Origin: a virus
IMG/VR virus record: IMGVR_UViG_3300009128_001952
Coordinates: 1-27,609 of that record
DNA: 27,609 nucleotides
Reading direction: 5' to 3' (one strand)
The notes under the pieces: model-generated
What the model saw: only the letters and a program-made list of their open reading frames with translations
The model's database searches: none
Told to the model about the DNA's origin: nothing
Translations under genes and position numbers: made by a program
Shown: positions 3,063 through 17,641 of the stretch, one piece after another
Numbering within the stretch: the stretch's first letter is position 1
How the letters are laid out: every line of letters starts with the position of its first letter

Positions 3063-6000
3063 ATGTACGAACGAAGGGCAAACCGGGATGAGCCGTCAGC
3101 GGAAACCGCTGTCAACGAGGTTTCATGTTGCCACTGGGACATCCCGGCAGAGACTGTAGAGGACACACTCGGCGCTGCCCGATGGGCTTGGAAGTGCGTG
3201 GAAGATCTTGCCCGGGTGTTCTGCCAGCAATGCTGCGGCGCCCGTGCATGTACTCGCGGCGAGGCGGATGTTGACTCTCGGCTCGACGGAGCGTCCGGCT
3301 CAGATAGCGCAGCCGCGGCACGATGGGGCGAAGTCCAGCAGAAGCTTCATGAGGCGATGGCGTTCTTTCCGGAATGCTCGCCTGGACCTGACGACTGTCC
3401 CGCGTGCGCTGTCGTGAAGGCCTTCGCACAATTCCCGATCTTGGCGAAGTTCTCTCCGGTGCCCCCCGTTGCAACCGTGAAACTGAATGCGGTCGACTGC
3501 CACCCTGATGTAGTGTATGTGGGCAGCGTGCAGAAGGAGTCGGTACCATGCTCCATCCGAGATACGCTGATCGGTGATGCCGAACACGAGATCGACGAGA
3601 TGTTGCGCGAAGAGGCCCTCCTGAAATTCGATCTCAGCCAACTGCCTCCAATGCTGCCGGCGACGCTGGCCGAAGTAGAGCTCCCGCTGACCGCCGGCCA
3701 GCGCGTCCTCCAGCACCTCCGGCAGCTCTGTGATGAGGAGCGTGAATCGCTTGGGGACGAACGGACGCCCAAGACACCACGCCGCCATGCCGAAGAACCG
3801 GACAGTGGTCCGTACTACCTGCGCGTCTGGCATGGAGTCAGGGAACCGACCTACCGTGACGGAGAGCCAATGGGCGAAGACCTGCGGGAAGAAACAACGT
3901 ATTTCTACCGCCCTCATGATAGGGTTCTGGCCCGCAGGCTGACCCGCCTTTTCGCTAGACAGCTTGCTAACGAAACCTGCAAGTTCAGTTGTATCTCGGC
4001 CGATGATTTGAGTGAAGAAGACCATTTCCTGGTTGATGAGGCCATCGACGGTCTGCGGGAGCGAGTCCACGAGGCACACTTTGAGTGGCGTCAGGAACAG
4101 GGATTGCGCGTCAACCACGACGATCACGTCGTGACAGCCGGCGCCTACCTGCTCGACCGGAAGCCCCCGCTGAGAGGCGACCCGCTCGCGTCTGAGTGCT
4201 TGTATGACCAAGCAGAACGCTGGGAAGAAAGGCTGCTGACTAAGGCGGCTGAAGCAACGACCGAGAACACGCAAAAGGAAGATGGAGCGACCAGCAGCGA
4301 TCGGGTGACTGTAGCGGATTTTCTTCCGGAGTTGTCCACGGCCGTTGTAGCGGCCAAAGCGCTCCAGGAGCTCAGCCGGATCCGGTACTACTACCCCGGC
4401 GTAATTGAGGAATCAGAAGCCAAGCAGGTTCATTTGACACTTGTAGATGCCTTGGATGCGGCTATGCAGCACCGCGGCTTTCAGGACATCAGAGAGTTCT
4501 ACTCGCGGCCCGTCTTTGGAGAACCGCAGGTAGTAGAAGAGGACCTATTCGGGCCCAACGCCCTCCTTATCCTTCATCCTGATATCGTCATAAACGAAAA
4601 GGACCCCGCAAAGACGAAGACAAGCCTCAAGAATGCGCTCCGGAAGTGCCAGGAAGCCGCGTCTGAACCTGTACGCCAAGTCGGGGAACGTTTGGTCACG
4701 GCCGTGCTCTTCGACTGCAGGACACCACGGCCATCTGGGGATTCATCCTTTCAGGAACCGCAACGCTTCCTCCAAATGCTGCGCTTCTATTGGGGCATAT
4801 GCCGATCCCTCTTGCTTGATGCAGTTGACGCCAAGTGCGGCTACCAGCCACACCCATTGATGCCACTCATCACGAATCTCCGCGCACGCATGCATGTGTG
4901 CTGGCAAGAACTGACTAGCGGCGAGGAGGCCGGTAAAGCTGAAAACACCGCGAATGACTTGCTGGACGTTCTCGTCAGCGGCGAGCTTGACGGGCTTTCG
5001 GTGGTACCAGAATCGACGACAGGACAAGTAGCGGATGTGGATTCGTTCTTGGAGCATTGCCGTCTTGAGCTGGGATCAAAGACCTATCCGCTCACACCGG
5101 CAGAAGAAACCTTCCTTGACTGGGCGCGGGAGAGCGTGAAGCAACACCACGCGACCGTGGAGCAGCTCTGGAAGAAAATACTCGCGAACGCCGACCGAAT
5201 GAGGGCCAAGAGCGGTGATCCCCGAGAAGCCAGCGCTGATTCCCAAGAGACTGCTGAGACGGGAACTGGGACTGGCTGCCCGGGCGTGATTGGCCCGCGG
5301 GGAGCGACCCGGGCGCTGTCCTACGACTCACGCGGGCTCGTTGGAGATGAAAAGACATGGGTACATGCGGACGTGCTTGGCTTGACCCTGGACGAGGTCC
5401 AGCATGTCCTCAGCTCTTGGGGCAGCGAAGTGTCCCAGCTGGCTGACACGGGCGTAGTCGTCTTCGATGCTGCAGATGCGGATGCCGCCGCTTGGCTGGA
5501 AGGAGAGCTGAAAGACGGCGTCTCTCCCCCGACCAGCGTCGCCGAGAAGCTAATGCACCAAGTCTACTTGGTCGCCACAGCGATGAAGGTCGATCCAGAG
5601 GCAATGTGGGCCTACACAACGGCAGCAACGGACGGTGTCGTCCCCACGGATCTGTCTAATCAGCGCAAGGCTGCAATGCGCGCCCTAGATGCGCTCGGAG
5701 CCCAACTGGAGCTATTGAACCAGCAGGCTCGTCTGCTCGGCAGGGAGCCAGAGCAGGCAACTCTTGCTCAGGCCCTCGGCATGGTCCCAACACGAGTAAG
5801 CAAGTCACCTCCCGCACAACACAAGGACTTCATGAGAAGAGTTGCGACTACGACAACGACGTCACCGACGCAAGCTAGGGCGAGCCTGGTCGCCCAGAGC
5901 ATGCGGTGGGCCGCTACTGGCGCAGCTGGGGCAGGAAGCGCGGTGCCCCAAGATCCCACGAACGAGGAACTCGCCTACGCTGAGGCAGCGATCTTGGATT

Positions 6001-7199
6001 ACCTCGTGACTCGATTTGGCGAACAGGACGATGCAGGAGGCAATTGGCCGCGGGATTGGCACGAATGTCCCGAAGCATTTCAGCTCTGGAAACAAAAGGT
6101 CCTAGAGCTGCGCCACCTGCGTGCGGAACACACCATCCGTTCTGTCCCCAATGGGCCAGCAGCGACAGGAAGCGACGCACTTGACCTGAGCAACTGGCTT
6201 TGGCGGCTAGACTGCGTGCAGGGAGAGATGGAGCGCCTAGTGCCCGACTGCAATGTGCACGTCGCCTTTACGATCAAGGAAGCTGGCGTGTCGGGCGGAG
6301 GTGAGTTCGATTCATTTCCTTTTGGCGAGGCTTTCTGGAGAACCGGAACCGCTGTGCCCGGATGGAAGGACGCGGATGGTGCTCTGTGGCTTGAGTTGGG
6401 AAGCGAAGAACTGCCCTTCGTTATCCGGTGGGATCTGGAGGACACGTGGAGCGCATGCGATTCATTGCCGGCGGCAGCATCGCGGCGCGTGGGAGATGTG
6501 CTTGTCTACGACAAAACCTTCGGGTGGGACACTTGGTATTACTTCGACAAGCCCCTCGCCGATCAAGCGACGACGGACCACGATCAACTTGCCCACGCGC
6601 TCGTCGACCTCGAGGCGGCAGTCATGGAATGCTGTGACCTAGCCCCGCGGTCTGTGGCGGAAAAATGCGGCAACCTAGCATGGCTTGGCTCCTGGCCAAC
6701 CACCCTTTTCTATCTGGCGTTCGTGCGAACACATCCACTCCTGGGCGCCTATGGAACCCGCGTGGCCCAGGACACAAGTAAGACAGCGTTCACGAAATTC
6801 AACGACTACGTCATCAGGCTGTCCCCAGATTTGCGCACGGCCACTTTTCACGCGCTTGATGCGCTGCGGCACTTCGCGCAGATGCTACCCGGTGGTGAGG
6901 CCAAGGTGGCGACGCCAAAGAGGCCAAGTGCGAAGAAGCGCGCACCGAGGGCTGCCGCAATCGAGACACTGAAGAAGGAACTGATCAAACACATCAGGGC
7001 GGCTCGAGATCACGCACAGTCTGCTGTTGACTGTAGGGCAGAACCGTCGCTGTTGGAGCGGCCAAGCAAGCGTCTGCTTGGTTCGCTAGCCGGTGTGAAA
7101 CCGTGGACCGTGACTCGTTGTTTCGACGATTCCAAAGAACTAGAGCTGCTGTGGAGAATCGCGGGCAGCCTAGAAGACGTGATGAAATACGGCAAGTAA
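3063..7199 (+). CDS. Giant protein of unknown function (1378 residues) with a C-terminal HTH-like tail
   Basis: I do not recognise a family for most of this protein. The N-terminal 130 residues are rich in cysteine (CCHW, CQQCCGARAC, CPAC), suggesting metal binding. The middle is acidic and helical, with no Walker, nuclease, protease or membrane motif that I can see. A basic linker (about 1280-1298) leads to residues 1299-1378. There a long helix (LKKELIKHIRAARDHA) is followed by RPSKRLLGSLAGVKPWTVTRCFDDS and ELELLWRIAGSLEDVM. This resembles a helix-turn-helix tail I associate with planctomycete hypothetical proteins. The gene is monocistronic, with its own promoter before it and a perfect inverted repeat after it. 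One sampled 60-base stretch is about 53% GC, against about 68% in the terminase gene. Its position beside int suggests cargo, possibly defence or regulation, but no function is shown. Confidence 0.85.
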   Translation: MYERRANRDEPSAETAVNEVSCCHWDIPAETVEDTLGAARWAWKCVEDLARVFCQQCCGARACTRGEADVDSRLDGASGSDSAAAARWGEVQQKLHEAMAFFPECSPGPDDCPACAVVKAFAQFPILAKFSPVPPVATVKLNAVDCHPDVVYVGSVQKESVPCSIRDTLIGDAEHEIDEMLREEALLKFDLSQLPPMLPATLAEVELPLTAGQRVLQHLRQLCDEERESLGDERTPKTPRRHAEEPDSGPYYLRVWHGVREPTYRDGEPMGEDLREETTYFYRPHDRVLARRLTRLFARQLANETCKFSCISADDLSEEDHFLVDEAIDGLRERVHEAHFEWRQEQGLRVNHDDHVVTAGAYLLDRKPPLRGDPLASECLYDQAERWEERLLTKAAEATTENTQKEDGATSSDRVTVADFLPELSTAVVAAKALQELSRIRYYYPGVIEESEAKQVHLTLVDALDAAMQHRGFQDIREFYSRPVFGEPQVVEEDLFGPNALLILHPDIVINEKDPAKTKTSLKNALRKCQEAASEPVRQVGERLVTAVLFDCRTPRPSGDSSFQEPQRFLQMLRFYWGICRSLLLDAVDAKCGYQPHPLMPLITNLRARMHVCWQELTSGEEAGKAENTANDLLDVLVSGELDGLSVVPESTTGQVADVDSFLEHCRLELGSKTYPLTPAEETFLDWARESVKQHHATVEQLWKKILANADRMRAKSGDPREASADSQETAETGTGTGCPGVIGPRGATRALSYDSRGLVGDEKTWVHADVLGLTLDEVQHVLSSWGSEVSQLADTGVVVFDAADADAAAWLEGELKDGVSPPTSVAEKLMHQVYLVATAMKVDPEAMWAYTTAATDGVVPTDLSNQRKAAMRALDALGAQLELLNQQARLLGREPEQATLAQALGMVPTRVSKSPPAQHKDFMRRVATTTTTSPTQARASLVAQSMRWAATGAAGAGSAVPQDPTNEELAYAEAAILDYLVTRFGEQDDAGGNWPRDWHECPEAFQLWKQKVLELRHLRAEHTIRSVPNGPAATGSDALDLSNWLWRLDCVQGEMERLVPDCNVHVAFTIKEAGVSGGGEFDSFPFGEAFWRTGTAVPGWKDADGALWLELGSEELPFVIRWDLEDTWSACDSLPAAASRRVGDVLVYDKTFGWDTWYYFDKPLADQATTDHDQLAHALVDLEAAVMECCDLAPRSVAEKCGNLAWLGSWPTTLFYLAFVRTHPLLGAYGTRVAQDTSKTAFTKFNDYVIRLSPDLRTATFHALDALRHFAQMLPGGEAKVATPKRPSAKKRAPRAAAIETLKKELIKHIRAARDHAQSAVDCRAEPSLLERPSKRLLGSLAGVKPWTVTRCFDDSKELELLWRIAGSLEDVMKYGK

Positions 7200-15499: not shown

Positions 15500-17641
15500 A
15501 TGCAGGTTAAGCAGTTGAACATCAATGACTTACGGCCGTATGAACAAAACCCGCGCATCAACGATGCGGCCGTGGACGCCGTTGCGGCGAGCATCACGGA
15601 GTTCGGGTTCCGGCAGCCTATCGTGGTCGACGAGCAGAACATCATCATCGTCGGCCACACGCGCTGGAAGGCGGCGAAGAAGCTCGGCTTGAAGAAGGTG
15701 CCCGTCCATGTGGCGACCGGCCTCACGCCGGAGCAGGTTCGGGCGTACCGCGTCGCCGACAACAAGCTTGCCGAGTTGGCGGAATGGAACCTCGATCTGC
15801 TGCCCATCGAACTGGCCGGCCTTCAGGAGATGGACGTCGACCTCGGCCTGCTCGGCTTCGACCAGGACGAGTTGGCCAAGCTGCTCAACCCTGACGGGAC
15901 GCCGGGCCTGACCGACCCCGACGACATCCCCGACCTGCCGGACAAAGCCATCACCCAGCCCGGCGACCTGTGGATTCTGGGCGAGCATCGTCTGCTCTGT
16001 GGCGATGCCGGGGTGGCCGAGGATGTCGATCGGTTGCTCGACGGCGCGTCGATCCACTTGGTCAACACCGACCCGCCGTACAACGTCCGGGTCGAGCCCA
16101 GGAGCAGCACGGCCATTGCCGCCGGCCAGAGCTCGCATCCCGACCTGTCGAAGAAGATGCATCACCAGAAGTTCGACGTAGCCCGCGGTGTCACCGACCC
16201 CAAGAAGGCCAAGCGGAAGATGCGCGCGAAGGACCGCCCGCTCGAGGGCGACTTCGTCACGGACGAGGAGTTCGTCGAAATGCTCCGCGCCTGGTTCGGC
16301 CAGATGGCACGCGTGCTGGAGCCCGGCCGGTCGTTCTACATCTGGGGCGGCTACGCGAACCTCGGCAACTATCCGCCCCGCCTCAAGGAGGCCGGGCTGT
16401 ATTTCAGCCAGGGCATCATCTGGGACAAGCAGCACCCGGTGCTCACCCGCAAGGATTATATGGGGTCGTTCGAGATATGTCAGCCGCCCGACACCAAGGT
16501 GCATACGCCGCAGGGGGAGGTTCCGGTCGAATCGCTGCGAAACGGCGACGAGGTGATGAGCTTCACCAAGCGGTCCCACGCCATTATCGGCCACCGTCAC
16601 GGACCGAAGGTGACGGTCGGTTCGCGGCGTTATGGTGGCCCGCTTTACGGTGTGGCGGTCGGATCGAACACGACGTGGAGCACCGATGGCCACCTCTTCA
16701 GCGTCCGGCTCGTTCCACATGCCCGCCGTATTTGGGGCGTCTATCTCATGCGCCGAGGGCGTTGGTGGCGGGTCGGTAAGACACAACTGCTAACCACTTG
16801 GGGATTGGGGGTGAAACAGCGCCTGGATATGGAGAATGGCGAGGAAGCGTGGATTTTGAGCACGCACTATTCGAATACCGAGGCCGCGACGGCCGAACAA
16901 ATCGTGTCGGCGCGGTACGGAATCCCGACTACTTTCTGGGTCGAGGCCAATACGTCGAAGCGGACGGTTTCTCAGATCGAGCACATCTACGACAAGATCG
17001 ACCCGATGGCGCTACACCGGGGCGCCCTCTGGGCACTGTCCGATCATCACCGGCGTCTGGAGTATCCGTTTATCCGAAGTGGGAACACACGTGCGAAGTA
17101 CAGTCGCCGCGTGTCATTCCTGGTGTGTGCGTGCAACCTGCTTCCCGGCGCAATGGAAGTCCCGGTGCCGACCGGCGGGCCGAGGTTCGTCTGGTCCGCG
17201 GTTCGGCATGTCGATGTGCAGTCGTACAGCGGGCCAGTTTATTCGCTCGACGTCGAGAAGTACCACCACTACATCGCAGACGGGATCGTGACGCACAACT
17301 GCTTTTACGGTTGGCTGGAGGGCGCAGGGCACTCGTTCTTCGGCCCGAACAACGCGACAGACCTGTGGCATCTCAAGAAGGTTGCTCCGCAGAAGATGGT
17401 GCATTTGACCGAGAAGCCCGTCGAGTTGGCCGTGCGGGCGATGCAGTACTCGTCCAAGACCGGCGAACACGTGCTTGACCTGTTCGGCGGCAGCGGCTCA
17501 ACCCTCATCGGCGCGGAGCAGACGGGCCGCAAGGCGTACCTGATGGAAATCGACCCGCTCTACTGCGATGTCATCGTCCAGAGGCACGAGCAGTTCACGG
17601 GGCAGAAGGCGGAGCGCGTTCCGTTGGAAGTGACCGCATGA
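15500..17641 (+). CDS. ParB-domain DNA methyltransferase interrupted by an intein
   Basis: The 713-residue precursor begins with a ParB/sulfiredoxin-like domain (about 5-90) including VGHTRWKAAKKLG (51-63). Next comes a beta-class amino-methyltransferase with DPPY at 191-194 (motif IV) and LDLFGGSGST at 659-668 (motif I, SAM binding). This order suits adenine-N6 or cytosine-N4 methylation. Residues 327-600 are an intein; joined, the mature enzyme is about 439 residues, normal for phage ParB-methyltransferase fusions. It would methylate phage DNA, probably to evade host restriction. No cognate nuclease is nearby, so it is an orphan. GAGGAGG precedes the ATG, and a strong hairpin terminator lies about 200 bases beyond the stop. 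Confidence 0.9.
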   Translation: MQVKQLNINDLRPYEQNPRINDAAVDAVAASITEFGFRQPIVVDEQNIIIVGHTRWKAAKKLGLKKVPVHVATGLTPEQVRAYRVADNKLAELAEWNLDLLPIELAGLQEMDVDLGLLGFDQDELAKLLNPDGTPGLTDPDDIPDLPDKAITQPGDLWILGEHRLLCGDAGVAEDVDRLLDGASIHLVNTDPPYNVRVEPRSSTAIAAGQSSHPDLSKKMHHQKFDVARGVTDPKKAKRKMRAKDRPLEGDFVTDEEFVEMLRAWFGQMARVLEPGRSFYIWGGYANLGNYPPRLKEAGLYFSQGIIWDKQHPVLTRKDYMGSFEICQPPDTKVHTPQGEVPVESLRNGDEVMSFTKRSHAIIGHRHGPKVTVGSRRYGGPLYGVAVGSNTTWSTDGHLFSVRLVPHARRIWGVYLMRRGRWWRVGKTQLLTTWGLGVKQRLDMENGEEAWILSTHYSNTEAATAEQIVSARYGIPTTFWVEANTSKRTVSQIEHIYDKIDPMALHRGALWALSDHHRRLEYPFIRSGNTRAKYSRRVSFLVCACNLLPGAMEVPVPTGGPRFVWSAVRHVDVQSYSGPVYSLDVEKYHHYIADGIVTHNCFYGWLEGAGHSFFGPNNATDLWHLKKVAPQKMVHLTEKPVELAVRAMQYSSKTGEHVLDLFGGSGSTLIGAEQTGRKAYLMEIDPLYCDVIVQRHEQFTGQKAERVPLEVTA
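16478..17299 (+). mobile_element. Intein within the methyltransferase, with a GIY-YIG-like insert
   Basis: The intein runs from C327 to N600 of the precursor (274 residues), with extein residue C601 after it. Block A reads CQPPDTKVHTPQGEVPVESL and continues with NGDEVMSF. Block B is TTWSTDGHLF with its T and H. Block F/G is VYSLDVEKYHHYIADGIVTHN followed by C. All splicing residues (C1, block B T/H, terminal HN, C+1) are present, so it should be active. It exceeds a minimal Hint domain by about 120 residues. The extra part contains GVY (413-415), RVG (424-426), R441 and E466, in the order and rough spacing of a GIY-YIG nuclease. Removing the intein joins GSFEI to CFYGW, a conserved methyltransferase stretch. 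Confidence 0.88.

Follow-up and report, generated by a model that had tools for sequence, protein, structure and literature searches.

A contiguous class 1 intein with a predicted GIY-YIG nuclease domain in a phage ParB-methyltransferase gene

Host gene and genomic setting

The window, i.e. the whole stretch of 27,609 nucleotides that was analysed, is a virus contig of IMG/VR (record IMGVR_UViG_3300009128_001952). An open reading frame at 15500..17641 on the plus strand encodes 713 amino acids with no stop in frame. The gene, all features of which are given on this strand, combines a ParB-like N-terminal domain (Pfam PF02195, residues 2-71 of the protein) with an N6/N4 adenine-specific DNA methyltransferase (PF01555) that is split in two; the match to phrog_498 has an E-value of 2e-121. 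The methyltransferase is interrupted by an intein. Its N-extein (15500..16477) ends in ...RKDYMGSFEI, from where intein-free homologues pass directly into the C-extein (17300..17641). The latter begins with Cys+1 (CFYGW...), and its first ~27 bases form the target-side motif that is shared with a second host gene (see below).

The neighbours of the methyltransferase are a temperate-phage set, consisting of an integrase, a Sak4-like annealing protein, a DEAD helicase, a Prim-Pol, terminase gpA, and a lambda-type portal. Close to the integrase, an open reading frame of 1378 amino acids (3063-7199) has no match in Pfam or PHROGs. A second intein was considered for the long terminase reading frame, and none was seen there.

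The intein and its splicing domain

The intein (16478..17299) comprises exactly 274 codons, from C1 to N274, between ...DYMGSFEI and CFYGW.... All features of a class 1 sequence are present, namely C1, T69xxH72, H273-N274, and Cys+1. Residues 1-79 of the intein (16478..16714) make up the N-terminal half of its Hint splicing domain, with Cys1 in block A and the TxxH motif of block B (T69-D-G-H72, 16682..16693). The C-terminal half (17117..17299) contains blocks F and G and ends with H273-N274. Domain searches match Pfam Intein_splicing (E 3e-7), Hint_2 (E 2e-5), and NCBIfam intein_Cterm (TIGR01443, E 4.5e-9). Across 73 non-redundant full inteins of the family described below, C1, H72, G269, T272, H273, and N274 are invariant and T69 is kept in at least 90%; the +1 residue is Cys in 83 relatives and Ser in 47. 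An AlphaFold model of the whole intein, built from the 73-row alignment, has a pLDDT of 96.3, and its best Foldseek matches are all Hint or intein structures. On sequence and predicted fold the element qualifies as a class 1 intein.

The insert and its predicted fold

Inteins are described as carriers of LAGLIDADG and occasionally HNH nucleases. In the window's intein, residues ~80-213 (16715..17116) occupy the position at which inteins carry homing endonucleases. No LAGLIDADG or HNH motif is found in this insert, no Pfam domain of either class matches it, and the predicted fold differs from both. The insert consists of a putative GIY-YIG catalytic core (residues 86-147, 16733..16918), delimited by AlphaFold models, structure searches, and profile comparison, and a remainder (residues 148-213, 16919..17116) with predicted helices at 164-172 and 176-189, presumably the DNA-recognition part. 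The remainder has no match in Pfam, nor does Pfam detect a NUMOD DNA-binding module in any of 73 family members.

The core is predicted to comprise strands 86-93 and 96-103, helix 111-118, strand 123-130, and helix 133-147, i.e. the beta-beta-alpha-beta-alpha order of the GIY-YIG fold. Within the model, the tyrosine and the RVG motif lie in strands 1 and 2, the arginine in helix 1, and the glutamate in helix 2. The counterpart of the GIY tyrosine is Tyr89 (16742..16744), the last residue of a GVY at 87-89; eleven residues after the GVY, R98-V99-G100 (16769..16777) corresponds to YIG with Arg in place of Tyr. Arg115 (16820..16822) in the first helix would correspond to the conserved arginine of the superfamily, and Glu140 (16895..16897) to its catalytic, metal-binding glutamate. 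Trp125 (16850..16852) in the third strand is invariant in this group.

Sequence searches give little guidance. Across 73 members, the insert has no match of substance in Pfam, PHROGs, or PDB sequences, and among these neither a Pfam GIY-YIG family nor a PDB chain is matched. A loose GIY-YIG-like pattern appears in 0.19% of shuffled inserts, which renders the motif alone only moderately convincing. A profile of the insert core was aligned (hhalign) with 26 PF01541 domains taken from genomes, with 200 column shuffles and a reversed profile as controls. The score is 34.5 (probability 91-93%), as compared to a mean of 10.1 for the shuffles (SD 2.0, maximum 20.1) and 10.7 for the reversed profile; unrelated controls (Hint halves, methyltransferase) reach 6-14 with no meaningful alignment. 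The UvrC-type subset alone scores 29.0 against a shuffled maximum of 16.8. The Slx1-like subset alone is not significant (15.3, below a shuffled maximum of 21.8). T5orf172/MUG113 was considered as the nearest branch on account of the resemblance of KIG and RVG, but hhalign shows no significant similarity of the insert to a small alignment of this branch; the Lys at the position of the YIG tyrosine in aligned T5orf172/MUG113 sequences is nevertheless a parallel for a basic residue. In the significant alignments R115 is out of register with the GIY-YIG arginine; the weaker Slx1-like alignment alone pairs the two correctly. The case for equating them thus depends on where R115 lies in the model, namely in helix 1, and on its invariance. 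The C-terminal Asn of the UvrC and I-TevI types has no evident counterpart in the insert; Slx1 likewise has none (PMC1564403).

Structure comparison points in the same direction. The insert modelled separately has a pLDDT of 91.6. Foldseek of this model against the PDB yields no significant match. After VIA re-alignment, the best 14 rows are all GIY-YIG proteins with individually weak Z-scores of 3.1-4.6 (UPF0213 4.6, Slx1 3.9-4.5, GIY-YIG domain of UvrC 3.1-3.5), and the next unrelated rows have Z 3.1 and 2.3. A search of a viral structure library lists three relatives of the insert first, followed mostly by GIY-YIG, Hef, Seg, and intron endonucleases. What counts for the predicted GIY-YIG fold is the agreement of these scores, each of which is weak.

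Conservation singles out the same residues. Among the insert columns of the 73 non-redundant full inteins, Y89, R98, G100, R115, W125, and E140 are invariant. Counted over all inserts, Y89 is present in 147 of 147, R98 in 147 of 148 (one Lys), G100 and R115 in 148 of 148 each, W125 in 149 of 149, and E140 in 150 of 150. As judged from these alignments, conservation of the catalytic set is not due to chance. For 14 tested pairs with computable dS, dN/dS of the insert ranges from 0.04 to 0.35, indicating that the insert is under purifying selection. Since Arg98 is kept almost throughout the ~150 relatives, in which RVG, RIG, or RLG is the norm, the sequences indicate that an Arg in place of the YIG tyrosine characterizes a divergent group and does not signal decay.

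The model, the structure searches, the profile similarity, and the conservation of catalytic residues together support an assignment of the insert to the GIY-YIG superfamily, with one canonical residue, the YIG tyrosine, replaced. The earlier note had read the locus as an intein at 16478-17299 with GVY, RVG, Arg, and Glu in GIY-YIG order and a nuclease of this type instead of LAGLIDADG or HNH. Limits and motif layout are borne out, and the nuclease class is supported by fold prediction, structure search, profile comparison with shuffled controls, and conservation. The earlier note had also left a choice between a degenerate and a divergent nuclease, of which the second is upheld and the first is not.

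Relatives and distribution

With the whole intein as query, tblastn detects methyltransferases of Streptococcus suis prophages (42% identity), the intein that is annotated for SPO1 and CampHawk in a helicase of the UvrD type (33%), a Providencia plasmid (47%), helicases of Vibrio phage RYC and Justusliebigvirus, UvrD genes on cyanobacterial plasmids, and a Thermobispora plasmid. A single-protein scan of viral contigs with the intein gave no match; an alignment-based scan succeeded. A further 67 viral and 80 genome loci came from scans guided by a profile. In total the family comprises ~150 loci, more than 50 of them in the same methyltransferase gene. The host genes are phage methyltransferases and UvrD helicases of phages and bacteria, with two main insertion places: the ParB-methyltransferase at the position occupied in the window (HEW/FEI/HEP^C, the caret denoting the insertion point) and motif III of UvrD/PcrA (GDxxQ^[SC]IYx[WF]RGA). 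The points within motif III differ slightly, with GDS^CQQIYDWRGA, GDxDQ^[SC]IYxWRGA, and QxIY^SWRGA (L059, L062, L063, L066, L105 versus L107-L159). Other sites, which deviate from the Y-x-W motif, are found at loci L045, L049-L051, L054, L060, and L064 (IIDELQD^CSASVI, HIEA^CDNMQ, DISL^CLGTGAL, FLSY^CGIGPET).

Several members deviate from the common architecture. The UvrD inteins L107-L159 (357-372 amino acids) as well as L006 and L012 have ~90 extra residues after the shared insert, in the chromosomal long relatives for example LCGDRRGxxPMHRISMxGxD...VRPARxGSxxWRFET; the stretch is possibly an additional DNA-binding module. The helicase of Klebsiella phage KP13-16 (L005:1240-4836) harbors, together with the GIY-YIG-type intein, a second and different intein in its P-loop (AGTGK^AQPL...VTHN^TSTLKF) with LAGLIDADG-like motifs, perhaps of class 3 given the Ala at its start. 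Two copies, L097 (about 1499) and L104 (about 3001), are missing the N-terminal intein half, and the remainder is fused to an AAA/P-loop gene and to the methyltransferase's own N-part, respectively; these may reflect rearrangement or assembly chimeras. In the helicase of Bacillus phage phiBsKO1-1 (L011), the SPO1-like intein and the helicase region lie in several frames relative to SPO1, which points to frameshifts through decay or sequencing error. A two-piece methylase match in Acidithiobacillus phage AcaML1 (L240) was rejected as an intein: the pieces are two neighbouring genes, each with the annotation DNA modification methylase, that jointly span the window's methyltransferase.

Empty alleles, methyltransferase tree and mini-inteins

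The earlier note had suggested looking for intein-free alleles at the insertion site, and such alleles are found. All of 80 sampled methyltransferase homologues are uninterrupted here, mostly with the junction GAFEI^CFYGW, in a sample that is biased because the empty junction was among the search seeds. On a methyltransferase tree with 77 empty members and 32 intein carriers, the window's extein groups with 23 intein-free ones at a support of 99; L161, its sister at 84% identity, has no intein either. The inteins nearest to the window's (L013, 69%; L080, 65%) reside elsewhere on this tree. At least six to seven gains or losses are required, and a single clade of intein carriers is rejected (p-AU 0.005).

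Two mini-inteins, L065:3001-3447 (149 amino acids) and L109:1733-2164 (144 amino acids), are found at the same methyltransferase site; both keep the splicing blocks and lack the whole insert, which is in keeping with a separable module and with a homing cycle. Homing is supported, but not proven, by these comparisons together with the dN/dS of the insert and the target motif described next, and a function of the insert as a homing endonuclease is probable.

A target motif shared by two host genes

Immediately downstream of the insertion point, a stretch of 27 bases is similar between the two unrelated host genes (TGCTTCTACGGCTGGC.. and TCcATCTACGGCTGGCGC..). The upstream flanks of the insertion sites in both genes do not match each other. 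When a motif profile built from one gene is run on the other, the insertion site there has a median rank of 1 of ~1844 positions, and the reverse comparison gives 0 of ~925. When the first codon is ignored and only Cys, Ser, and Thr codons are considered, the true site is at the top in 42 of 52 and 33 of 34 genes. The median rank fraction of the true site is ~0.003 among in-frame codons and 0.014-0.025 among splice-compatible codons. Because a single protein motif is common to all UvrD sites, this is effectively one comparison with a chance of about 1-3%, and the idea of a shared motif was noticed post hoc. The similarity suggests that recognition mainly reads the C-extein side, which would allow the element to change genes.

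Interpretation

We consider the locus, with a good deal of confidence, to harbor a mobile class 1 intein whose Hint domain carries a putative GIY-YIG homing endonuclease in the usual endonuclease position. The computational basis consists of the intein anatomy, the Hint fold, the GIY-YIG fold with its catalytic set, purifying selection, empty alleles, and a patchy distribution. The precursor methyltransferase would splice itself via the standard pathway of Cys1, TxxH, His-Asn, and Cys+1 to give a functional methyltransferase. The insert would act as a GIY-YIG nuclease with the catalytic set Tyr89, Arg98 (for the YIG tyrosine), Arg115, and Glu140. It would introduce a double-strand break in intein-free methyltransferase alleles at or near a GAGATC^TGCTTCTACGGCTGG-type site, with DNA specificity presumably provided by the C-terminal helices of the insert (within residues 148-213) and perhaps by the Hint domain too. 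Repair from an intein-bearing copy, i.e. gene conversion, would then insert the element.

A GIY-YIG homologue might alternatively reside in the intein with no role in homing, for example as a structural or regulatory DNA-binding domain or as a domain that aids splicing. The replaced YIG tyrosine and the co-variation of the insert with the splicing domain would be compatible with such a role, as would the presence of some relatives in chromosomal UvrD genes of bacteria, the empty-allele comparison having covered methyltransferases. But the complete catalytic set is near-invariant in ~150 sequences from many phyla, the element was repeatedly gained or lost among methyltransferase lineages, and a mini-intein can persist without the insert, and we regard a non-homing role as unlikely.

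It is very improbable that the insert is some other small alpha/beta domain, unrelated to GIY-YIG, that bears the motif by chance. Pfam and PDB sequence searches are blind to the insert, Foldseek against the PDB is non-significant, and VIA Z-scores stay below 5, all of which such a domain would explain; yet GIY-YIG proteins head the blind structure lists, the profile score far exceeds those of the 200 shuffles, the reversed profile, and the unrelated controls, and the invariant residues coincide with the catalytic positions of GIY-YIG and lie in the secondary-structure elements expected for them. We attach hardly any weight to the idea that the window's copy is the decayed remnant of a formerly active homing endonuclease, because its one ground, the departure of RVG from the canonical YIG, is the usual state of the family (RVG, RIG, or RLG, with R98 in all relatives but one), the insert retains all invariant residues in an intact reading frame, and the intein, nested among empty alleles, is apparently a recent arrival.

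The mobile intein with a candidate GIY-YIG homing endonuclease is therefore the reading that we prefer. A wider proposal is more tentative and, in our estimate, falls somewhat short of an even chance: that the relatives form a large, unrecognized family of contiguous inteins with an Arg-for-Tyr GIY-YIG homing endonuclease, residing in phage methyltransferases and, in phages as well as several bacterial phyla, in UvrD/PcrA, and that they moved between these genes because both share the downstream target motif (approximately xTCTACGGCTGGCGCG, which specifies [FI]Y-x-[WF]-[RK]). The family to which the window's intein belongs is widespread in phages and bacteria and has apparently been overlooked until now. 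If these readings hold, protein-splicing elements have captured a third major nuclease class, which has spread unnamed through phages, the textbook phage SPO1 among them, and bacterial UvrD genes. The family would further represent a group of compact sequence-specific nucleases with an unusual active site. In addition, with a short DNA motif common to its two unrelated host genes, the intein would provide a naturally occurring example in which ectopic homing is testable.

Comparison with known systems

A survey of the GIY-YIG superfamily from 2006 states that it had not been found in inteins (PMC1564403), the one explicit statement on this point that we encountered. In the open-licence papers searched, no contiguous intein with a GIY-YIG domain is described, and an earlier description elsewhere is possible. 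The earlier note calls such modules rare in inteins; with ~150 loci found here, the arrangement is better described as apparently unreported. Both host genes are familiar: UvrD/Rep/PcrA are among the listed intein hosts (PMC5874633), and inteins in phage N6/N4 methyltransferases have already been tabulated (PMC5050341). Together with the more than 50 loci in the same gene, the latter contradicts the suggestion that a methyltransferase is an uncommon location. The methylase inteins of mycobacteriophages and actinophages (PMC5050341, PMC9957025) have a phage DNA methylase as host in common with the window's intein but differ in their homing nuclease, which in actinophages is LAGLIDADG (PMC9957025).

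The closest known elements are members of the same family. The intein of SPO1 gp34.33 (FJ230960) and its relatives in CampHawk and Goe phages is the same intein throughout its 274-275 amino acids, insert included, at 33% identity (E ~1e-35). The records already mark it as an intein, with a UvrD-type helicase as host, and neither these records nor the papers examined name a nuclease class for it. The methyltransferases of Streptococcus suis prophages (phiD12, Javan599, SsuJS7, and others) share host family and type of site, with 42% identity over the whole intein; the records annotate a methylase only and leave intein and nuclease unmarked.

A combination of intein and GIY-YIG nuclease has been described for the split intein AceL NrdHF, in which a free-standing GIY-YIG gene lies between the two halves (PMC7891396). 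As predicted for the window, the GIY-YIG nuclease is situated at the endonuclease breakpoint of the intein, on a phage-like contig. In AceL NrdHF it is a separate gene between the halves of a class 3 split intein, whereas here it would be encoded in cis within a contiguous class 1 intein. With Slx1, UPF0213, the N-domain of UvrC, and homing endonucleases of the I-TevI type, the insert has in common the predicted core topology and the order Tyr, x-(V/I)-G, Arg, Glu. It differs from the superfamily in the Arg that replaces the YIG tyrosine, a longer loop before helix 1 (G100 to R115), the invariant Trp125, the lack of an evident C-terminal Asn, as in Slx1, and its location inside a Hint domain.
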